Below are positions 16,693 through 47,900 of a DNA stretch of 64,000 nucleotides, piece by piece. The stretch is taken from positions 1 through 64,000 of IMG/VR virus record IMGVR_UViG_3300013119_000533. One strand, 5' to 3'. The translations under genes and the position numbers were made by a program. The notes beneath the pieces are model-generated. The model was not told the DNA's origin. It worked only from the letters and a program-made list of their open reading frames with translations, and did not search any database. The DNA comes from a virus. Every line of letters begins with the position of its first letter. The first letter of the stretch is position 1.

Positions 16693-19600
16693 TTAATCTT
16701 CAAATGATGCACCTGAATTGGTGATCATGAAGTCGATCGCAATGAACTCAATTGCTCTGGCAGGCTTCAAGAAGATCTTTGCGTACATGATATTTCTATC
16801 AATCAAATCTGGTGTCGTTGTTGTCTCATCAAGTACAACCTTGAATTCCGTCAAACCAAATCTAGACTTTACACCGTCCAGGAAAGGTTCTACAGAACCA
16901 CGGAATCTATCCCATGTTGCTTGTACGTTCTGATCGAAAAGCAACGTTGCTGCTCTTCTTGACACCTCTTTCTTGATGTAGATCATCAAGCGACGTACAT
17001 TAATTCTATCAAGTGCTGAAGGCGTTGCTTGAAGCGTCTTCTGACCAAACACCACAATGCCCTCTGCTGGGAACTGCGCGATTGGGTTAATATTCGCCTC
17101 ATATAGATCGTCTCTCTCTTTCGAAGAAACTCTCTGAGATACTGCAAGTACTGGCAGACCGCCAGCACCCTCTGACAATCCACCTCTGGTGAACCCTGCA
17201 GGTGCGAACCATAACTCAGATCTTGCCTGAGTGCTACCAAACGTTCCAAGTGCCACAACTGACGGTGGTACCCAAATCTGTCGGTCGCTGATCTGGTCAG
17301 AGACCTTAACCCAAGGATAGAAAGCACAAGCATAACTTGAGTTCAACCCTCTGTTCTCTATATTGTCAACTGCTGTTCTGACCTTTGAATTCTGAATTCG
17401 GGTCTTGAAGTCATCAGTATTCTCTGTTGATGGAATATAACCGCCTGCCTCGATATCAATGACAGCGAGAGTGTCTGCGCGGTCCTCACACGTTCTAATC
17501 ATGTGATTTGTTATTCTCGTGTTCGTGATGCCTGGGATGGCAAGAGCGTTCATCTCTACCACCTCTGGATCTGCGACAGCGTCGATGCCGCGCTTAAGTG
17601 TCGCGATTTCGTATGCTGTTGTCTCGTCACCAGAAGAGAACTTGGAATTTCTAAATGGTTCCTTCTCCGTAATATCAAAACCATCAAACCCACCATATAC
17701 TGGGCAAGTGAATTTTGCGAACCCTGCCTTAACTAGGTCCTTATATCCACCTCTCTTGGCGGTGTAGGACTTGTTGAGTGCTCTAGATCCACTGACATAT
17801 ACCGCTGTGCCAACATCTACTGGAGTGATTGACCCCTGGTTCTTACCAAGGTTAGATGCCAGAGATCCCGACTTACTTACTATGATAAGGTCATCCAAAG
17901 TGAACATGAATGAATTCTCTACCTTTGCGGATGCTGCAGAGGCGTCATAAACACCTGCGCCCAAGAACCCACTACCCATGCGGCGAGTAATGTCGACGAA
18001 CGAAGGATCGAACTTTGTATCTGTTGGTGTTCTGTATGTCGAAACACCAAAGAATGAGTTCTTCGGATTTGACAGACCCTCTTCAGATGCTGAAAGTCTC
18101 ATTGGTAATGTTGGATAGACCAACGATGCAGTCAATTTCTGTGGGAATCCCAAATAAGGGATGTTCGTACTACCTGCTGACTTGATACCTGTTGCGCTTG
18201 TGCCAGCGACTACGTCTGACGATGCGGCTAAAATAGCGGACCCAGTTGCTGCGCCCATAAATTTACCTTCGCCATTACTTCCAGAATCATGTACGGTAAA
18301 TGCGCCAAATCCAGTTGCAACCTTGGTTTCGCCTGTAGCGATTGTACCCGTCTTGTATCTAGGCGGACCATAGAAACCGAATGGCATACTGATCGGATCG
18401 GTAACACCGTTATCAACATCCTGATCAACCAACACTCTAAAGAATGAAGAGTTGTTGTCATAATTACCGTAAACCCTGTATCTCTTGTCTGTTTCGTCCC
18501 ACTCTCTGTACTTGTCACCGACTTTACGTCCGATATAGTTACTAGAGTTAGGGTTTAGATTACACTGTGAGAATCTCTCCAAAACAACTGGCCTTGCATC
18601 GTTGTCAGAAATTCTTCTGACCAACACTGAAAATGTTCCGTAAGGATCTACGTCATTACCTGCCTTTACATCGGTAATTGAAACTTTTAAGTTTCTGGTG
18701 TTCCACCCACCGTCGTTAATACCAACAAATCTAAACAACTTCTGCATCGCCGCTGCTTTGTATCCAGTACCAATAGCATTTAAATCCTGAGAAAAGATCC
18801 AAGGCGTTCTAGAGTCCTGGTGGGCGATTGCTCTTACCATGCCGCTTGTCGTACTATGAAGAGGTACAATCATAGCGCATAGGGAACTATCAGCAGATAA
18901 CTCGCCTTTGTGAAGCGATCCACTGGTTCCTAAGAATCCGTGCGTGTCTTTAGCAAATCTGTCGAATGACTCTCCCAACCAGTATTTTGTTAATCCTGCT
19001 GCCTGAGTCGTGTCACCGTTTGTCAGTGTAGGGTTCGTGTTGAACACCTTTCTAATATATTTGTCCGAATTTCTATCAAAGTTGAAGGTTACTCTTCTTT
19101 CTGCCTTTGCGCCGTCTGTAAGAAGTGCTGAGAACTCCATTTTTGATGAATCCGTCGATTGTACAAGTACGTGAGAACCAGTGCCGTGGATACGTGCGCC
19201 TGGCCAGTGTGCTTTTTCACCAGCAAGGTGTCCAATGGTGCCCGTCAATGCCATTGCGCCCTTTTGGAAGTACCAAACAGCGGCAAGGTTACCTTCCATT
19301 GCTCTGTTTTGGTTTAGTTTCTCACCTTGTGATGTGATTGAGGCATTTTCCCCAACTAAACTGCTACGTCGGTCAACACCGCCCGTAGAAAAAAGATACA
19401 AACCATAAACTGCTGATTTGGTGTCATCGACAGCAGATGCATCCAAAGACTGATCTAGCGTCCAACCTGCGGCGCCAGCTGAAGTTGCTTGCGGGTCTTC
19501 TGTGCCCAACAATCTAACGACATTAACAGGCCCCGCGTTTTTCAAAAATGCTTGGGCAGCATATGCGGCGTAAGTTGGCGCAGTTTCGTTGCCTTCTCTC

Positions 19601-19815
19601 CAAACATCACCACCCTTACCTCCTGGGATTGGGTTGCCAAACACTTCAATGAATTGTGACATGCTATCGACCCTAAGAGGGATCATACCTGGACCTTTTG
19701 CTAGGCGACCAACGATCGTTGGACCTACGTCCTCTGGCTCTCTTGCCAATTGTGAGTTATCGATCTCATTGAGAAAGATACCTGGGGATACAAATTTAAA
19801 TCTCTTTACAGACAT
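16693..19815 (-). CDS. 18: Tail sheath protein, gp18-like, enlarged
   Basis: 1040 residues against about 660 in T4. N terminus VSPGIFLNEIDNSQ and the C-terminal block (from LATPS-type DRINVRRLMIYIKKEVSRR to RAIEFIAIDFMITNSG) are the conserved sheath ends that interlock neighbouring subunits, including FDQNVQATWDRFRGSVEPFL. The extra ~380 residues lie in the middle, as surface-exposed Ser/Gly/Thr-rich domains, as in other large sheath proteins. Preceded by a strong intrinsic terminator, an ACTATTTA motif and AAGGAG, so it heads its own transcription unit, as expected for an abundant protein. Confidence 0.92.
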   Translation of the reverse strand: MSVKRFKFVSPGIFLNEIDNSQLAREPEDVGPTIVGRLAKGPGMIPLRVDSMSQFIEVFGNPIPGGKGGDVWREGNETAPTYAAYAAQAFLKNAGPVNVVRLLGTEDPQATSAGAAGWTLDQSLDASAVDDTKSAVYGLYLFSTGGVDRRSSLVGENASITSQGEKLNQNRAMEGNLAAVWYFQKGAMALTGTIGHLAGEKAHWPGARIHGTGSHVLVQSTDSSKMEFSALLTDGAKAERRVTFNFDRNSDKYIRKVFNTNPTLTNGDTTQAAGLTKYWLGESFDRFAKDTHGFLGTSGSLHKGELSADSSLCAMIVPLHSTTSGMVRAIAHQDSRTPWIFSQDLNAIGTGYKAAAMQKLFRFVGINDGGWNTRNLKVSITDVKAGNDVDPYGTFSVLVRRISDNDARPVVLERFSQCNLNPNSSNYIGRKVGDKYREWDETDKRYRVYGNYDNNSSFFRVLVDQDVDNGVTDPISMPFGFYGPPRYKTGTIATGETKVATGFGAFTVHDSGSNGEGKFMGAATGSAILAASSDVVAGTSATGIKSAGSTNIPYLGFPQKLTASLVYPTLPMRLSASEEGLSNPKNSFFGVSTYRTPTDTKFDPSFVDITRRMGSGFLGAGVYDASAASAKVENSFMFTLDDLIIVSKSGSLASNLGKNQGSITPVDVGTAVYVSGSRALNKSYTAKRGGYKDLVKAGFAKFTCPVYGGFDGFDITEKEPFRNSKFSSGDETTAYEIATLKRGIDAVADPEVVEMNALAIPGITNTRITNHMIRTCEDRADTLAVIDIEAGGYIPSTENTDDFKTRIQNSKVRTAVDNIENRGLNSSYACAFYPWVKVSDQISDRQIWVPPSVVALGTFGSTQARSELWFAPAGFTRGGLSEGAGGLPVLAVSQRVSSKERDDLYEANINPIAQFPAEGIVVFGQKTLQATPSALDRINVRRLMIYIKKEVSRRAATLLFDQNVQATWDRFRGSVEPFLDGVKSRFGLTEFKVVLDETTTTPDLIDRNIMYAKIFLKPARAIEFIAIDFMITNSGASFED

Positions 19816-19956: not shown

Positions 19957-22900
19957 TTATAATGTCTGTGATCCAGATAGGTACTGAACTACCACAACAT
20001 CATCAGCGTCCATTGTAAGGGTTTCATGCAAGAAAACCTCGCCGCCGTTATAGTCGATTCTATAGTCACCGTCTCTTGGGTTACCTGCAACGCCGTTACT
20101 CTTCACAAGAAGAAGACCATTGAAGTAAACCATCTCCGAACCAGACACCATTGAGATGTAAGATCCTGAAGGAGGTAGAGAACAGGTTGTATATAGCGAT
20201 CCAGAACCCTGAGTTGGCTGTGATCTATTCACAATCTTCTTAGAAGATCTACTGAATATTCTTCTGTGCCAACCGACGCTCAACTGACCATTGTTGAATA
20301 CAAGTCCACCATGTGAATTGGTTGCGCTTTTAACGATATCGCAATTGAGATGCGCTTTCTTGATCACATCATTTGTAACAATATCATTCAACTGCAATTT
20401 ATCAACAGTGAGCGTATGCGGTGTTGTTTTGGATCCAGACAATATATCTGAAGTTATCTTATGGATCGTTGCCGTTCCAGAACCAGAAATGGTTGACGTT
20501 GCCGTCAACGTTCTAACTTCAATCTTGTCAACATCAAGTAAGTGTCCATCTACAGTAGAACCAGACACCGTACTAGTGATCGTCATTGACACGCCGTCAA
20601 CATCGTTACCAGTAAGTTTGTCTGTATCTAGGGTATGCGCCTGAACGGTTGTACCCGAGACTGTTGTAAACGTAGCTGAGGTGCCATCCAGATCTCCAAT
20701 GTTTGCTTGATTTGAATCAATTTCAAAGATCTGTGCGAGAGCACCCGTTACAGTCTGCGCATTGAAGGTAGAACCACTCATAATCGAGTCCTGGTTACCG
20801 ATCGCAGTGTTGATTGTTACAGTGTGGAAAATACCCACTGAACCAGAGATAGATCCCGTGACACCAAATCTCTGACCACCATCACTGACAGAACCACTCA
20901 AGGAAGCACCCTGTGTTGATCCGATCTTTAACAAGAGATCAAGTCCTGCTCCAGAACCAGCGTCACCCATAACAATACTTGCTACGCCAGCTGAACCAGT
21001 ACCTGCTGTACCACCAATCTGAAGACCAGCGCCTTCGGCGGCCACGCCTGTTGAACCACTTGCGTACGCAATGTACTGCTTTTGTGGAACTTCGAAGTGT
21101 TCAGATGTTGTCACGCCAGAAGTAATCTTTCTAGCTGAAAGGTCATCTACCACAATCTTGTAGAACTTACCAGATGAACCTGATATGTCATTACCAGTAA
21201 CAACATGGAGGTTCGAAGTTCCAGAAGATGTGATATTGGTTGCGACTACCTTGCGGAAATCACCCTCATCACCATCAATCTTGTGAATTACTGACGTTCC
21301 AGAAGATGTGACTACGTTTGCGGTTGCCTTATTAAAGGTACCTTCGTCCACGTCTGTCTTATGGAATGTAGAAGTTCCAGAACCAGTAACGACTGTTGCA
21401 ATAACCTTGCGGAAATCACCTTCGTCTGAATCAAGTTTATGAATTTGTGCCGTTCCAGAACCAGTGATCATATAAGCAGCACTTGCTCTAGCAGTGGAGA
21501 ATTTAACCCCACCGAACGTTCCCTCATCAACATTAATCTGGTGGATCGATGCTGTACCTGAACCAGAGATCACAGAAGCGCCTGAATCTAGGTTTAATTT
21601 TCCTACTGTCAATGCATCAACATCACCCTTATGAAGGGTAGACTCTGCTGTAGACGACGCGGTTAACACACTTAAGTATGTCGTTCCGTACTTGTTTCCA
21701 GCTGCACCAAGATTGAGTCCGCCATCAGTAGATGGTTGAAGTGTTGTTGCAGTTAGATCCAATTCGTCTGTTCCGTTAATGTTCAACTTAAGTGTAGTTT
21801 TTGCATTAACCGTCAAAGTAGTTTTGGCACTAGAATAAATCTCGCCAGTAGATCCTGAAACACCAGTATAAGCAAAAACTACTTTACCAGCATTTGAAGC
21901 AGTCAAATGTACACCATCTGTGGTAATCTTAGCGATACCATCGAAACCACTTCCGTCGTTATACTGAATTGCTCCTTCATTACCTCTCGCTGCATTCGAG
22001 AGAGATAGTGCAGTCTTCAGTTGAGTAAAACTAAATGCCTTGGTTTCATTGTCTGATGCGTCACCACAATAAAAATAATCACCATTCACAAAGTCAACGT
22101 GATCGTTTCTTGCCTGTGCTGATGTATCCAAATGAACAACCTGAACAGATCCAGATCCAATATCATCTCTCTGTACTGTACTCGAACCTAACTTAACTGT
22201 TGTTACGACACCATCTTTTATTAACTTGGTGCCTATCTTTGTTACTGCCATTGATGCTCCTCCTACGGCTATGTAATCGCTAAATGAGCTGGCGGTTACG
22301 TGTACCTGCCCGCTATCAAAACTATACTTACTGGTGGCGAGTTCTGCCCATGCACTGGAAGCGTTCGACCTTCTAAAGATTCTTATTGCCGATGTGCTAC
22401 CTGTGATGTTCCAAGATAGAATCGCAGGACTACTAAAAGATGTACCGTGAGGAACAAATCTAATAATGTCTGACGATGCTCTTGGAGCAATAATCGCTGT
22501 ACCTAATGCTGAAATATCCGTTGTCGCTGTGCCTTTGCCAGCACTTTGAGATAGAATCGCTACTGTTACAGTGGTGTTACCAGATAGCGCTCCAGCTGGG
22601 ATATTTGCTTGAGCGGAAGGGTTAGTGTCAGTGTTACCTGCTTGTACCAATCCACCGTTTGCTGCCACAACAGAACTAGACACCTCGCCATCAATGGCGG
22701 TGGGTTCCACAGCACCTTCGGTTCCCAGACCTGTTGTAAAGACATGAAAGTTTGTCGCAGACTGGTTAAGGGAAGCGTTTCTGCCTGGTTCCAAAGAAAG
22801 TATACCACCTCCAATAAAGATCTGCCCTGGGGCACGATCTTCTGGGTTGGTGTTGTAAATCTCTGCCATACCAGATTGAGTTAGAAACTCCGATCTCCAC

Positions 22901-23946
22901 CCACCTGGATATCCTCCAGTGTTTGATCCATTCTCTAGAACATACACAGAGTCAATCGTAAGTGTATCGTGGTAAGTCGCATCCATTCTGTAGAATATCG
23001 AACCCTTATAGTGCTTCGAACTGTAACCAGTCAAAGCTCCCGAACCACCGTCGAAAGAGGACCCAGTCAAAGTATATGCTGGTTGATTTTGTCCAGAATA
23101 TCCCTGCGATGAAGATGCGTGAACTTCTACTTGTGCGTTGTTGAAAATGAGAAGTGAATTACTTGCCGTATGCCACTCCATAGTCATACCAAAGTAAGAA
23201 CTTGCCTGAGAACCAGTTATTGAGTATGCTGATGCTGCACCAGCACTTGGAACGTATGATGGCCATCCGTCCAAACTGGATCCTGTTCTTTGAACAATCC
23301 AAACTTTATTGTTGTTGGAATCGCCAACTGCGAATTCGTCATTTGTTCTCAACCATCTCGCAGAATAAACATCCTTTGAGGATTGGTTCGTAACTCGCAC
23401 TGTTTGTGTCCAGTTCCAACCCGCATCGGCGTCGTCTGCAGAACCCGAGTTGAAGACCCAGACATACTGATCGCCAGCAGAACCAGGTTCATGGTATGCC
23501 AACAATGCGTCTTTGTCCGCACTTATCTCAAGTTTCCAATTTGTTGCGCCTGATGAGTTGTCATTTCTGGTTATGACCTTGTGAAGACCAAAGTCGACGC
23601 CGCCGGCTGATGCCGTGACAATCCCCATTTCTTCGTATGCGTCATTTGTTGTAAAAATAAACTCTTTGTTGTTAACCCACACAAGATCGATCAATCCACT
23701 TGTTGTTCTCTGTGGGACAGAGGATATTAGATCCCAGACACCATTCGATCCAGACTTTCTAACATCAATACCGTGATTTAAACTTGAGTCGTTGTTCCTA
23801 TACCTAGTAGGAATAATCATCAACTCCCCGTTTGGACTAACCAAACCTGAACGATAACTTCTGGCATCTGCTGAACTCAATGAAGAGGAAACTGGTCCTC
23901 TCGTGTTTAGCACTCCAGCCTTATTATCTAATATTGTATAAGCCAT
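19957..23946 (-). CDS. Fibre-like virion protein with N-terminal extension
   Basis: 1329 residues. Residues 566-1329 are a paralogue of the neighbouring 758-residue protein, sharing its N terminus (TKIGTKL...), a block of 26-residue repeats around GSGTxxxHKxDxDEGxF, and the C-terminal module VYFNGLLLV...DYRIDY...LHETLTMDADDVVVVQYLSG. Residues 1-565 are extra: repeated W-containing strands (VWDLISSVPQRT, VWVFNSGSA, VWIVQRTGSS) suggest a beta-propeller, followed by an Ig-like or strand-rich part. At the junction an intact ribosome site and ATG (22249-22264) remain, so a 764-residue short form may also be made. Probably a tail or neck fibre contacting the host surface. Confidence 0.75.
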   Translation of the reverse strand: MAYTILDNKAGVLNTRGPVSSSLSSADARSYRSGLVSPNGELMIIPTRYRNNDSSLNHGIDVRKSGSNGVWDLISSVPQRTTSGLIDLVWVNNKEFIFTTNDAYEEMGIVTASAGGVDFGLHKVITRNDNSSGATNWKLEISADKDALLAYHEPGSAGDQYVWVFNSGSADDADAGWNWTQTVRVTNQSSKDVYSARWLRTNDEFAVGDSNNNKVWIVQRTGSSLDGWPSYVPSAGAASAYSITGSQASSYFGMTMEWHTASNSLLIFNNAQVEVHASSSQGYSGQNQPAYTLTGSSFDGGSGALTGYSSKHYKGSIFYRMDATYHDTLTIDSVYVLENGSNTGGYPGGWRSEFLTQSGMAEIYNTNPEDRAPGQIFIGGGILSLEPGRNASLNQSATNFHVFTTGLGTEGAVEPTAIDGEVSSSVVAANGGLVQAGNTDTNPSAQANIPAGALSGNTTVTVAILSQSAGKGTATTDISALGTAIIAPRASSDIIRFVPHGTSFSSPAILSWNITGSTSAIRIFRRSNASSAWAELATSKYSFDSGQVHVTASSFSDYIAVGGASMAVTKIGTKLIKDGVVTTVKLGSSTVQRDDIGSGSVQVVHLDTSAQARNDHVDFVNGDYFYCGDASDNETKAFSFTQLKTALSLSNAARGNEGAIQYNDGSGFDGIAKITTDGVHLTASNAGKVVFAYTGVSGSTGEIYSSAKTTLTVNAKTTLKLNINGTDELDLTATTLQPSTDGGLNLGAAGNKYGTTYLSVLTASSTAESTLHKGDVDALTVGKLNLDSGASVISGSGTASIHQINVDEGTFGGVKFSTARASAAYMITGSGTAQIHKLDSDEGDFRKVIATVVTGSGTSTFHKTDVDEGTFNKATANVVTSSGTSVIHKIDGDEGDFRKVVATNITSSGTSNLHVVTGNDISGSSGKFYKIVVDDLSARKITSGVTTSEHFEVPQKQYIAYASGSTGVAAEGAGLQIGGTAGTGSAGVASIVMGDAGSGAGLDLLLKIGSTQGASLSGSVSDGGQRFGVTGSISGSVGIFHTVTINTAIGNQDSIMSGSTFNAQTVTGALAQIFEIDSNQANIGDLDGTSATFTTVSGTTVQAHTLDTDKLTGNDVDGVSMTITSTVSGSTVDGHLLDVDKIEVRTLTATSTISGSGTATIHKITSDILSGSKTTPHTLTVDKLQLNDIVTNDVIKKAHLNCDIVKSATNSHGGLVFNNGQLSVGWHRRIFSRSSKKIVNRSQPTQGSGSLYTTCSLPPSGSYISMVSGSEMVYFNGLLLVKSNGVAGNPRDGDYRIDYNGGEVFLHETLTMDADDVVVVQYLSGSQTL
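21154..21663 (-). repeat. 26-residue coding repeats in the long fibre gene
   Basis: Tandem 78-bp units encode imperfect copies of TGSGTSxxHKxDxDEGxF plus a variable strand. About six copies are visible, the first two degenerate (one carries an insertion). They correspond in position to the repeats of the paralogue at 25249-25716 and probably form a repetitive beta shaft. Boundaries are approximate. Confidence 0.7.
22249..22264 (-). promoter_or_regulatory. Internal ribosome site and start inside the fibre gene
   Basis: AGGAGGAG (22257-22264), five bases, then ATG (22249-22251) opening M-A-V-T-K-I-G-T-K-L, which aligns with the true N terminus M-A-K-T-K-I-G-T-K-L of the neighbouring paralogue. 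This is either a relic of a gene fusion or a working internal start giving a 764-residue protein (19957-22251). Confidence 0.6.
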
Positions 23947-24008
23947 AATTTAATTATTCTCCTTTTGTTATTATGTAAAATAAAATAACAAACACATAAA
24001 CGAAACAA

Positions 24009-24039: not shown

Positions 24040-26316
24040 TTAAGAGATCGTTCCCGAGAGAAACTGAACGACAAGAATATCGTCAGCATCCATAGTAAGA
24101 CTCTCGTGCAATTCAACTGTCACAGGACCATTGCTGCTGTTGTAGTCAATGGTATAGTCACCGTCGACTGGCGGTCGCTGCGTTGCTGGTGCAGGGATGA
24201 GAAGAACACCATTTAGGTATACCATCTCGGAACCTGACATGATGATCGTCGGAGCCCCGCTTGTTGTTGCCAAAGATGCAGTCGTATATAGAGAACCAGA
24301 ACCCTGTGCAGGTGCTGCTGCTCTGTTTGCAACAGATGTATCTCTAGAGAAAATCTGTCTCTGGTGTCCAATACTCAAAACACCGTTTGCAAAGTTAAGT
24401 CCACCGTTACCGTTGTCTATATCATAAACAATATCTCTGTTTAAGTTTGCTGCCTTGACAACATCAGTCGAAACGATAACACCCACGTTCAATTTGTCTG
24501 TGTCCACATTGTGTGCGGTCAAGACTGAACCAGATAATACATCTGAAGTTACCTTGTGGATTGTTGCTGTTGCTGAACCAGAAATGGTCGATGTTGCATC
24601 TATTCTTCTAACCTCGATCTTATCGACGTCAAGAAGGTGAGCATCAACGGTCGAACCAGATACTGTTCCCGTGAATGTTGCAGAAGTTCCGTCAAGATCC
24701 TGAACGGTTACCTTGTCTGCATCAGTCGTGTGAGCCTGAACAGTTGTACCAGATACCGTAGTAAAGGTAGCAGATGTACCGTCCAAGTCAAGGATGCTTG
24801 CCTGGTCTGCATCAATCTCGTGATACTGTACAATCGTACCTGACAAGGTGTGGAATGTACCCTTAGAACCAGAGAATGATGTTGCCGTCAATCCCTTCGC
24901 TACGTCCAATTCCTGGAAAATACCAAGAGATGCTGAAAGTGTACCAGACACACCAAATAATACTGCGTCATTCTTTCTACCACCTGTGGTTGAAAGCGAG
25001 AGACCCTGTGTGGAACCAATCTTGAAAAGAAGATCAGAACCAGCGCCGCCGCCTGCGTTACCCAAGATTACACTTGCGATACCGCTTGAACCAGAACCTG
25101 CAGTGCCACCAATCTGAAGGCCTGCGCCCTCAACAGAATCACCTGCGGATCCTGATGCCGCAGCAATGATCTGCTTATTAACGATTTCAAAATGCTCTGA
25201 AGTCGTAATGCTGGATTTGTACGTTCTTGCGTCAAGAACATCTACAACCAACTTGCGGAACTTACCAGAAGAACCAGAGAGTTCATCTGCCGTTACGACA
25301 TGGAGGTTTGATGTACCAGAAGACGTAATGTTTGTAGCAACTACCTTACGGAAGTCGCCTTCGTCGCCGTCAATCTTATGGAAGAGCGATGTGCCCGAAC
25401 CAGATACGACAGTACCGATAATCTTGTTAAAGGTACCTTCGTCAACATCAACCTTGTGAAAGAGTGAAGTGCCTGAACCTGTAACCACAGGTGCGATAAC
25501 CTTATTGAAAGTACCCTCATCTACGTCAACCTTGTGAATCTGTGCGGTTGCCGAAGCAGAGAGGTTTGTTGTCTTTACAACATTAAATGTTGCGTCATCT
25601 ACGTCCAACTTGTGAAGCGTAGAGGTACCAGAACCAGTGATGGTTGTTGCTGTTACCTTTCTTGCGTCAAGACTATCTACATCCAACTTGTGGATTGTGG
25701 AAGTTCCTGAACCAGATACTGCATCAAGATACAGTGTTCCGTATTTCTTTGCTGCTGCACCGAGGTTGAGTCCACCGTCCGAAGAAGGCTGAAGTGTTGT
25801 TGCATTTAGGTCCAACTCATCGGTTCCGTTGATATTGAACTTTAATGTCGTCTTTGCATTGACCGTCAAAGTGGTTTTAGCGCTAGAATAAATCTCGCCA
25901 GTAGAACCTGAAATTGCAGTGTATGCAAACACTACCTTACCGCCGTCAGAAGCGGTCAAGTGAACACCGTCTGTTCTAATCTTTGAGATAGCGTCCATCG
26001 CATTTGTGCCGCCTTCGCCGTGAAACTGAATGTGTCCTTCGTTACCGACAGCTGCATTAGATGCTGAAACCGCTGCTTTGAGGTGTGCGAACGTGACCGT
26101 CCTCATGCCACCGCTTTTGCCCTTAGATGCGGATACGATTAAGACGTCGGCATCCTCAAGATGCGCCACGTCGCTACGTGCTTGGAATAGGTCTAAGTGA
26201 CCGACTTGAACTGAACCTGATGCGATCTTATCGCGAGTTACTGCGGAAGTATTTAACTTCGCAGTTGTGATGGCACTATTTGCCAATAGTTTTGTGCCAA
26301 TTTTTGTTTTAGCCAT
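24040..26316 (-). CDS. Fibre-like virion protein, repeat shaft
   Basis: 758 residues, Thr/Ser/Gly/Asp-rich. N terminus TKIGTKLLANSAITTAKLN is a collar-type helix-strand motif seen in fibres attached to a virion; residues 201-356 are six tandem 26-residue repeats (GSGTSxxHKxDVDEGTFNK); a second looser repeat zone (about 445-590) is built on DGTSATFTTVSGTTVQAH. The C terminus has the module VYLNGVLLI...DYTIDY...DADDILVVQFLSG also present in the paralogue and in one neck protein. AAGGAG precedes the ATG. Probably a trimeric fibre or whisker-type protein; receptor binding is inferred. Confidence 0.75.
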   Translation of the reverse strand: MAKTKIGTKLLANSAITTAKLNTSAVTRDKIASGSVQVGHLDLFQARSDVAHLEDADVLIVSASKGKSGGMRTVTFAHLKAAVSASNAAVGNEGHIQFHGEGGTNAMDAISKIRTDGVHLTASDGGKVVFAYTAISGSTGEIYSSAKTTLTVNAKTTLKFNINGTDELDLNATTLQPSSDGGLNLGAAAKKYGTLYLDAVSGSGTSTIHKLDVDSLDARKVTATTITGSGTSTLHKLDVDDATFNVVKTTNLSASATAQIHKVDVDEGTFNKVIAPVVTGSGTSLFHKVDVDEGTFNKIIGTVVSGSGTSLFHKIDGDEGDFRKVVATNITSSGTSNLHVVTADELSGSSGKFRKLVVDVLDARTYKSSITTSEHFEIVNKQIIAAASGSAGDSVEGAGLQIGGTAGSGSSGIASVILGNAGGGAGSDLLFKIGSTQGLSLSTTGGRKNDAVLFGVSGTLSASLGIFQELDVAKGLTATSFSGSKGTFHTLSGTIVQYHEIDADQASILDLDGTSATFTTVSGTTVQAHTTDADKVTVQDLDGTSATFTGTVSGSTVDAHLLDVDKIEVRRIDATSTISGSATATIHKVTSDVLSGSVLTAHNVDTDKLNVGVIVSTDVVKAANLNRDIVYDIDNGNGGLNFANGVLSIGHQRQIFSRDTSVANRAAAPAQGSGSLYTTASLATTSGAPTIIMSGSEMVYLNGVLLIPAPATQRPPVDGDYTIDYNSSNGPVTVELHESLTMDADDILVVQFLSGTIS
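25249..25716 (-). repeat. Six tandem 78-bp coding repeats
   Basis: Encode residues 201-356 of the 758-residue fibre, period exactly 26 residues, each beginning S/T-G-S-G-T-S (variants SASATA and TSSGTS) and containing HK-x-D-x-D. No indels between copies, so the array is under length constraint, as expected for a repetitive beta shaft. Confidence 0.85.
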
Positions 26317-44765: not shown

Positions 44766-47700
44766 TTAGACGCTGACATGTGCAAATCCTCTTTTCTTGT
44801 CAATAACGATCTGCGTATCCACTGCGTCTTTAAGAGTATCTAGGTGCGAAATGAGTATAACGGTCTTAAAATATGACTTCACCATATCGATAATTCTTAC
44901 AAATCCCTCCATATTATCCTCATCTAAGGCGGTTCCTGGTTCGTCCAAAATGAAGATATCTGGCTTCGGAAGACTTGATACAGACAACAAAGATAACCTT
45001 ATGGCCATTGAAGCAATCGTCTTCTCGGCACCTGAACCCATCTCTAATGGTCTGGGTTCAAACTTGGGGTGTTTAATGAAAATATCCAACTTCTTTTCTT
45101 CGTTAAGAATAAACACTTCAAAGTCAACAATACCTGTTAAAATCTTTGCAATCTCATCATTGATGACTGGTAGTCTGTTCTTAATTACGTCGTAAGAAAT
45201 ACCATTTGTGTGGAAACATGTCATGAAAAGTTCGTACGCCGCAAACTCAGTTCGCAATGACTCCAACTCTTCCTTGTCTTCTTGCAAGTTCTTTATTTGC
45301 TGCTCTGCAGAACCCACCTCTCTGAAGAGATTGTTTGTCTCCTTTTGGCAAGACTTGCATTCTCTACTTGCCTTGCTGGCTTCTTTTTCTAGTCTTGTCT
45401 TTTCACTAATCAGTTCCTCCAGGTTCTCAATTGCTTCCCTGTTGTCTTCGTATTCTTTAAGTTTCAATTCCAGTTTTTCTAAAATCGTTTTTTGTTTAAA
45501 CAATTCACCCTTGTTCTTATCAACATTCAGCTGAGCGCTGGTAATATCTGACGACAGATTGTTTCTCTTCTCAATCAGTTGATCAAACTTCTCAACATAT
45601 TCCATCACCTTAAAAGGATCTAGGGATAAAGTATCCTCCCCCAACTTGTTGAGTTTAGCGCTAATGTCCCTCATTACGTTAGATTTAACCTTTACCAGTC
45701 CCGTAGCCTCGTGTGCATCTCTTATAAACTTGCACTCTGGAAAGGAATCTCCACAAGGAACTTCAGATAATAGATCCGTCTTTCTCATCAATCTAGATTT
45801 TTCGTTAGATCTTTTCTCAAGATCTTCCAACAAAACGTCGATTTGTTTCTGGTTTGCGTCTAACCGCTCTTTCTTTTCGTGATAAGTATCGATGTCAAAG
45901 TCCGAGATAAAGACTTCGATCTTTTGAAACTTGTCTTTGCCTTCCTCGATCTTAATAAGGAGTCCTTCTGTCTCTTTTTTAAGGCCCGAAATAGCATTAA
46001 TCCTGGTCTCTCTTTCCATTCTAATTTTGACGGGATCGATAATCTCTGTCGGTGCAGATTCAATCTTGTCCTGAATAATATTGACTTCCTTCTGGATGCT
46101 CTGGGTTTGTTCTTCCAGTTCTTTGCATCGTTTTTGATTTGTCGCAAGTCTCTCATTCTTTTCGACCAAGACTTGGTTTGCCTCTTCAATTTGTTGATCA
46201 AAATCATTTCCCTCCAATCTTCGCAACGCGCCTCTGGTGTCAGCAGATTCGTCTTTTGCCATTTTAAATTTTCTATCAAATACCTCTAAGTCTAAAAATT
46301 TAGCAAGTATTTCTTTTCTTTTTGTTGACCCCTCATTAATAAAAGTCAGAGAATCCAACTGAGATGCCATGGATGTCATCAAGAAATCTTCCAAGTTACC
46401 AAAATATTTTCTGATGTTCTTATCTGTATCTTGTCTAGATGTACCATTTAAACTTTCAACATTTCCAATTGCATCACTGGAATAGAAGTTCACATCTGTC
46501 TTAGCTTCTTCTGTCTCGATGCCTTTAAGTTTTTTAATGTACTTTTCAGACACACGTTCAATGCTCAACTCTTTATCGGCAATCTTAATTGTTGCCTTGG
46601 CAGATCCAACATCCATATTCTGATTGATCATGTTCAAATTTTTTCTGACAGATTTGGATGTAGAATTATATACAGCATACAACAAACTATCAATAATAGA
46701 AGACTTGCCTGAGAAGTTCTTTCCGAAAATGCCTACGATACCTTCAAGCTTTGCAAAGTCTATCTTATTGTTCGCACCATAATTGAAAAGACCATCCCAC
46801 TCCAGAGACTGCATACTCCAGTTGATGTTTCTATAAACCTCCTCTGTGTCTTCAATTGTCTTGTTTAATCTAGAATTAAGGGAGATGACCTTTTCCATAA
46901 CGTCATCTGTAACCTCATAATCCTCAAGATATTCTCTTATTAATTGATTTTGAACATTTATATTTCTCAAATCCTTTTGCTTGGATGCATCACTATCAAC
47001 ATCCAGTGCCTTACTTGCAGCACGATTTAAATAAGTTATACTCTCTGGTCTGTATTTAAACTTTGCGACGTCGACACTTCGTCGCATCACATCAAGCGAA
47101 ATATTCGAATCTGCTACCAAACGTAGTCTGGACCCTTCCGAAACATCAATTTCTGGTAGTGTACCGTCCTTGTTCAGTGCGACTGTAACAAATGGTTTTG
47201 GATTTTTGAACGTTATTAACTTACAAGTAAAGTCATCCTTGTTCTCAATATCCCACAACAAATACCCTTTGTCCAGTGTTTCTCCGAAGTTTTGTTGGAC
47301 TGTTGATCCAGCATATCGTATACGCCCCTGAGTGTCTAGGATTTGCGTCTTGTGGATATCGCCAAGAAAAGCAAAGTCAAACTTATTAAAGATGCTAATA
47401 TCATGATCACCTCCCAGGGTCCAATTCAAATCTGTCTTGGACCTGTCAATGGCACCGTGATAAAGTGCAATATTAACTATATCTTCATTTGTTGGATCAA
47501 TCCAATTTTCTTCATCGAACACCGATAAAACATTCAAGCAAAACCCGCCTTCTAAGCGATGTTCTTGAGCGTCTTTGAGTAACACTATACGTTCGTTGTT
47601 TAACGCCTTCACAATGGGCGATATCGCATCCTGACGACTACTATTTTTCAGGTTTCCGTCGTGGTTTCCCAAAATTATATAAGTTGGTGCGATTTTAGCA

Positions 47701-47900
47701 AGATTTTCAAAGAAATCTCTTGCCATGTCAACAAACTCTGGAGATATCTGCGTCTTGGTGTGTGCAATATCTCCACAATGAATAATATAGTCCACCTTCT
47801 CTTTTTTCAGAGAATCATATAATTGCTTAAATACTTCATTATATTCAAAGTGGAACTTAAGGTTGCGGATATGTGTATCCGCAATGTGAGCAAACTTCAT
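44766..47900 (-). CDS. SbcD-SbcC (Mre11-Rad50, gp47-gp46) fusion nuclease
   Basis: 1044 residues in one chain. N-terminal Mre11/SbcD phosphoesterase: ADTH (7-10), GD (43-44), GNHD (78-81), GDIH (180-183) metal ligands. Then a Rad50/SbcC ATPase: Walker A GKNFSGKS (393-400), long coiled coils, a central Cys pair C716-x6-C723 at the expected hook, ABC signature MGSGAEK (954-960), Walker B DIFILDEP (981-988) and switch His1019. Together they form the end-resection nuclease used in phage recombination-dependent replication. T4 and bacteria use two separate genes. GGAGT precedes the ATG. Confidence 0.93.
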   Translation of the reverse strand: MKFAHIADTHIRNLKFHFEYNEVFKQLYDSLKKEKVDYIIHCGDIAHTKTQISPEFVDMARDFFENLAKIAPTYIILGNHDGNLKNSSRQDAISPIVKALNNERIVLLKDAQEHRLEGGFCLNVLSVFDEENWIDPTNEDIVNIALYHGAIDRSKTDLNWTLGGDHDISIFNKFDFAFLGDIHKTQILDTQGRIRYAGSTVQQNFGETLDKGYLLWDIENKDDFTCKLITFKNPKPFVTVALNKDGTLPEIDVSEGSRLRLVADSNISLDVMRRSVDVAKFKYRPESITYLNRAASKALDVDSDASKQKDLRNINVQNQLIREYLEDYEVTDDVMEKVISLNSRLNKTIEDTEEVYRNINWSMQSLEWDGLFNYGANNKIDFAKLEGIVGIFGKNFSGKSSIIDSLLYAVYNSTSKSVRKNLNMINQNMDVGSAKATIKIADKELSIERVSEKYIKKLKGIETEEAKTDVNFYSSDAIGNVESLNGTSRQDTDKNIRKYFGNLEDFLMTSMASQLDSLTFINEGSTKRKEILAKFLDLEVFDRKFKMAKDESADTRGALRRLEGNDFDQQIEEANQVLVEKNERLATNQKRCKELEEQTQSIQKEVNIIQDKIESAPTEIIDPVKIRMERETRINAISGLKKETEGLLIKIEEGKDKFQKIEVFISDFDIDTYHEKKERLDANQKQIDVLLEDLEKRSNEKSRLMRKTDLLSEVPCGDSFPECKFIRDAHEATGLVKVKSNVMRDISAKLNKLGEDTLSLDPFKVMEYVEKFDQLIEKRNNLSSDITSAQLNVDKNKGELFKQKTILEKLELKLKEYEDNREAIENLEELISEKTRLEKEASKASRECKSCQKETNNLFREVGSAEQQIKNLQEDKEELESLRTEFAAYELFMTCFHTNGISYDVIKNRLPVINDEIAKILTGIVDFEVFILNEEKKLDIFIKHPKFEPRPLEMGSGAEKTIASMAIRLSLLSVSSLPKPDIFILDEPGTALDEDNMEGFVRIIDMVKSYFKTVILISHLDTLKDAVDTQIVIDKKRGFAHVSV

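Follow-up and report, generated by a model that had tools for sequence, protein, structure and literature searches.

A phage fibre gene with an added N-terminal module and a candidate internal translation start at the seam

Introduction

The tail fibres of T4-like and marine phages undergo modular exchange, in which domains enter or leave the fibre genes between stretches that are conserved. Phage endolysins provide cases in which an internal in-frame start between domains gives two chains from one gene; some of these multimerise, and the isoforms arising from the internal start can form heteromers (PMC9430671; PMC12203907). Likewise, in the RpnL/RpnS genes-within-genes, internal initiation gives a separately made C-terminal domain (PMC10327210). 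In the literature searched we found no tail-fibre precedent for such an internal start, which does not show that there is none.

Here we analyse a fused fibre gene, P1, in a stretch of 64,000 nucleotides of phage DNA (hereinafter the window) along with its relatives on other contigs, which are designated by L numbers. Like the endolysin Ply2638A, P1 has a ribosome site and a start codon between domains, and its predicted short form is the C-terminal part; unlike the endolysin, it is a virion fibre, and relatives encode the counterpart of its predicted short form as a gene of its own. With RpnL/RpnS it shares internal initiation, in P1 predicted, for the C-terminal part, but RpnL/RpnS is a bacterial toxin-antitoxin pair and P1 a structural protein. 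The modular exchange of T4-like and marine fibres has its counterpart in probable recombination near the P1 seam (differences of the relative L004 in codons 551-650); however, P1 gains an N-terminal cap before the conserved start motif M-A-x-T-K-I-G-T-K-L.

Results

The fused gene and its tandem paralogue

The features on which the analysis turns are the following.

24040..26316, minus strand: P2, tandem paralogue of 758 aa
24009..24028, minus strand: G-C-rich, terminator-like hairpin between P2 and P1, read directly in the sequence
23958..23964, minus strand: ribosome site of P1 residue 1, AAGGAGA, from leader comparison
19957..23946, minus strand: P1, fused fibre gene of 1329 aa, from the open reading frame and its translation
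22699..23946, minus strand: propeller-like N-terminal module (fold unconfirmed), P1 residues 1-416, from a profile match to the L041 and L075 modules
22252..22698, minus strand: ZU5-like domain, residues 417-565, ending Y-I-A-V-G-G-A-S, 55-58% identical to L041
22257..22264, minus strand: internal Shine-Dalgarno-like AGGAGGAG within Val-Gly-Gly-Ala codons (AGGAGGGG in L004)
22249..22251, minus strand: internal start codon ATG (Met566, A at 22251), the homologue of the first residue in P2 and in the stand-alone orthologues
19957..22251, minus strand: fibre part, residues 566-1329, orthologue of a stand-alone gene by similarity and fibre tree

The initial annotation had placed a Shine-Dalgarno-like site five bases before Met566 and aligned the protein from that residue onward with the N terminus of the 758-aa neighbour. 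Both observations hold: the bases upstream of the codon, GTAGGAGGAGCATCA, consist of AGGAGGAG and the 5-nt spacer CATCA, with the AGGAGG core 7 nt away, and the alignment with P2 shows 61% identity. In the BLASTP comparison the fibre part (query 1-761) matched P2 (subject 1-756) at 60.7% identity with E=0, and residues 1-565 gave no real match to P2. The codons before Met566 read GTA GGA GGA GCA TCA and close the seam residues Y-I-A-V-G-G-A-S; the peptide crossing the seam in the full-length chain is YSFDSGQVHVTASSFSDYIAVGGASMAVTK. Met566 is an in-frame ATG with its own ribosome site, lying at the domain seam and outside a conserved domain. The 123-kb record holds no second copy of the fibre part other than P2.

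The locus runs from neck-like proteins and small genes through P2 and P1 to the tail sheath and tail tube, with the portal and major head protein further along. The source is a contractile-tailed phage that has not been cultured, and its sheath and head protein are less than 60% identical to those of any cultured phage; we infer a marine origin from the named phages that come closest to the L075 homologue and to the sheath. P1 had no match at all in 50,697 phage records, and no relatives of P1 or of the L041 protein were found among cultured phages. PHROG and Pfam gave no match of P1 to a known fibre family; its fibre role rests on its repeats, on the tail sheath and tube genes that come after it, and on the L075 homologue, which weakly matches proteins of Roseobacter phages that carry a tail-fibre annotation.

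The fibre part is a separate gene in relatives

P1 arose by fusion to one member of a tandem pair of paralogous fibre genes, as is borne out by stand-alone orthologues of residues 566-1329 in eight distinct loci (L007/L008, L009/L023, L019, L022, L025, L030, L040 and L043). Each of these has a ribosome site of its own and opens with M-A-x-T-K/R-I-G-T-K-L at precisely the residue that aligns with Met566, and the gene directly follows the P2 orthologue wherever the contig shows that region. P2 itself is unfused in every relative whose P2 start is visible, and the intergenic slot between P2 and P1 is conserved in the relatives whose leaders were inspected. Within a group of marine phages with contractile tails, this locus as a rule carries two tandem fibre genes. 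The fibre part of P1 is 72% and 68% identical to L008 and L009, respectively, over the best segment (69-71% in alignment A2). The stand-alone proteins reach about 1200-1400 aa and carry inserted domains absent from the window copy.

We also observed that L008 (7919-11530), L009 (4027-7665) and L041 (4411-9942) contain two copies of one 210-230-aa domain at two sites in the fibre part; the copies are 44% identical to each other in L008, and neither is present in the fused copy of the window.

Other lineages carry homologous modules at the seam

P1 was recovered at full length in L002-L006; L002, L003, L005 and L006 are identical copies in P1 and were not counted as independent evidence, and L004 is 98% identical. 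In L004 AGGAGGAG is changed to AGGAGGGG with the AGGAGG core intact. Its nucleotide differences from the window are concentrated around the seam, 24 of the 84 falling within codons 551-650 (window 21997-22296), a cluster that suggests recombination at the seam.

More diverged fused genes occur elsewhere. The L041/L042 protein (~1844 aa) combines a diverged N-terminal module and a ZU5-like domain (55-58%) with a fibre part starting at residue 539, where Met is replaced by Val (GTG, still a possible start). On a 193-kb contig, L075 has a single 1252-aa fibre gene where the others have P2 and P1; its product comprises an N-terminal module (41% to L041 over ~100 aa), a poly-Gly linker and then M-G-L-T-K-I-G-S-K-L. 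The linker is encoded mostly by GGC, switching to GGA GGA GGA right at a workable spacing. Profile comparison joins the N-terminal modules of the window, L041 and L075 (E=2.2e-6, 323 columns), and the window N-terminus is 61% identical to L018 over 142 aa, at which point the L018 contig ends. On these sequence comparisons, homologous modules are fused at one seam in the window, L041/L042 and, more distantly, L075. The fibre tree separates the window from L041, which is sister to the unfused L025 and L040 (95/94); this implies repeated gain or loss of the module, or its transfer from one lineage to another.

The earlier description of the added part as an unrelated domain of ~565 residues is right as to the fusion but needs correcting: the part comprises a propeller-like and a ZU5-like portion, and it has homologues in L041/L042 and L075. 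The idea that relatives keep both parts as separate genes stands for the fibre part; searches found no stand-alone copy of the N-terminal module. Pfam, PHROG and PDB searches of the added part returned no reliable match. Its second domain recalls ZU5 (PF00791), which the L041 copy matches at 17.1 bits; however, this is below the curated Pfam cut-off of 21 bits, and the window copy gave no match in the same search. AlphaFold2 models had a pLDDT of 32 for the N-terminal half and 36 for the seam region, and were therefore left out of fold searches.

A ribosome-binding core recurs at the seams

In all three fused lineages the seam combines an AGGAGG core with a start codon: AGGAGG, 7 nt and ATG in the window; AGGAGG, 10 nt and GTG in L041/L042; and AGGAGG, 7 nt and ATG in L075. 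Among the 606 in-frame internal ATG/GTG codons of minus-strand ORFs, Met566 is the only one with AGGAGG 4-12 nt upstream, and its anti-SD energy of -10.2 kcal/mol ranks fourth of 421 internal ATGs. Outside the seams, in the same contigs and three unfused controls, AGGAGG stands 4-12 nt upstream of just one of ~1,200 in-frame internal ATG/GTG codons. We consider that these seams are best explained by a capped chain made from the native-type leader together with a short chain from Met566, a reading that we put at about 50%.

The contending account, in our view only a little less probable, is a plain fusion with a flexible Gly-Gly linker required at the seam, in which the GGA codons happen to spell AGGAGG, the old Met is simply inherited, and no product but the long chain reaches a meaningful level. 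All three seam motifs indeed lie in Gly codons (Val-Gly-Gly, Ile-Gly-Gly and poly-Gly). We recoded the seam residues with each lineage's own codon usage and found AGGAGG to arise by codon choice alone in 6% (window), 3% and 8% of cases for the three lineages, probabilities (0.03-0.08 per lineage) that are not small and so suit a plain fusion. Combined, these give p=0.007 for the core motif over three lineages and 0.03 for the window and L075 only, values to be read with the core statistic having been picked after the motif was seen and with the window and L041 seams sharing ancestry (44% identical codons). An equal or better binding energy arises by codon choice in 20% (window), 15% and 14% (p=0.09 combined; 0.13 for the two most independent lineages). 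The plain fusion is further favoured by the ordinary accessibility of the Met566 site, whose opening energy of 9.8 kcal/mol does not stand out among those of internal ATGs, the starts of P1 (3.4) and P2 (5.0) being better, and by the replacement of Met by Val in L041/L042. Against it, 3/3 fused lineages have the complete core, suitably spaced from a codon that can serve as a start, the substitution in L041/L042 put another start codon in place of ATG, and the L075 linker shifts from mostly GGC to GGA GGA GGA at the right spacing. Near the seam 55% of the codons are identical versus 44% overall, a difference in synonymous conservation that falls short of significance in so small a set of sequences. 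As a whole, the seam motifs are suggestive of more than chance, not decisive.

The leader of stand-alone genes now precedes residue 1

The leaders before residue 1 of the fused genes in the window, L018 and L041 resemble those of stand-alone genes (shuffle p 0-0.06 for most pairs). For instance, the window leader is similar to those of L019, L043, L008 and L009, and the L018 leader to that of L008, with a GGAGA site followed by ATTTTAA. In contrast, the internal site of the window shows no resemblance to most stand-alone leaders (p 0.06-0.9). These comparisons place the module between a native-type leader and the old start codon, and make the internal site mostly coding sequence of the incoming domain. 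The notion that the fibre gene kept its native ribosome site at the seam is thus unsupported in that form: a stand-alone-type leader now stands before residue 1, and AGGAGG lies in the incoming Val-Gly-Gly codons.

A second type of leader, AATAGGAGGTTGCTAA followed by ATG, is found in L025/L040. The L041/L042 seam (CAATAGGAGG, A or T, then ATTTCAGCA, followed by GTG) resembles it, and the window seam does so more weakly. The seam is thus possibly, if improbably, a translated relic of such a site acquired via module transfer: (I/V)-G-G would be the former ribosome site (CAATAGGAGGTTGCTAA followed by ATG in L040) after loss of an in-frame stop, and the window would have received module and seam together by recombination, a history that fits use or disuse of the site today. 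The L042 seam (GCAATAGGAGGTATTTCAGCA followed by GTG) has 11 nt (CAATAGGAGGT) in common with the L040 leader, L041 groups as sister to L025/L040 in the fibre tree (95/94), and the L041 seam is similar to the L040 leader with a shuffle p of 0.013; in the window, TAGGAGG likewise stands at this 7-nt spacing, and TCA takes the place of the L040 TAA. However, the corresponding window comparison gives p=0.087, several leaders were compared, the window's closer relatives have leaders of the other type, and the same residues could simply be the end of the ZU5-like domain.

An assembly or sequencing artefact (a lost stop or a chimaeric contig), for which one could cite the metagenomic origin of the contigs and the identity of four matches, is rejected as very improbable in view of diverged fused relatives: L004 is 98% identical, its frame is open and its substitutions are spread out; L018 shares the start at 61% identity; and L041/L042 and L075 are fusions in their own right.

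Discussion

In the lineage of the window, a portable head module of 565 aa (propeller-like and ZU5-like) has been placed in frame between the P1 leader and the old start codon. In the reading that we favour, with a capped and a short chain, translation from the native-type leader would give the 1329-aa capped chain as the main product, and ribosomes would also initiate at Met566 to give a chain of 764 aa, the counterpart of the fibre that relatives make without a cap. Production of the short form by internal initiation is plausible, at roughly even odds. If both forms are made, they could co-assemble via their common C-terminal part, so that only some chains or fibres would carry the head module. 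The long and short forms might even be mixed in one fibre, and such a mix might be selected. We regard it as rather unlikely that selection keeps a working internal start in several separately capped lineages, with each phage making both capped and uncapped chains from a single gene and thereby a controlled share of head modules in its fibres.

The separate gene, the fused gene with ATG and the fused gene with GTG form a natural before-and-after series, which lets one ask how virion proteins gain domains, and also whether phages keep internal starts to put a new domain on part of the copies only. Were both forms made, translation rather than gene number would set the composition of the fibre.

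Other features of the window and its relatives

The tail sheath (window 16693-19815) is unusually long at 1040 aa, and known sheath families match mainly its last third. At 44766-47900 the window has one gene of 1044 aa, with residues 1-354 matching SbcD-like and 313-1042 SbcC-like families; hence, both nuclease subunits appear as one chain. Upstream in L008 (2862-4736), a 624-aa protein joins an unrelated N-terminal half to similar fibre-like repeats, indicating that such repeats also occur in another virion gene.
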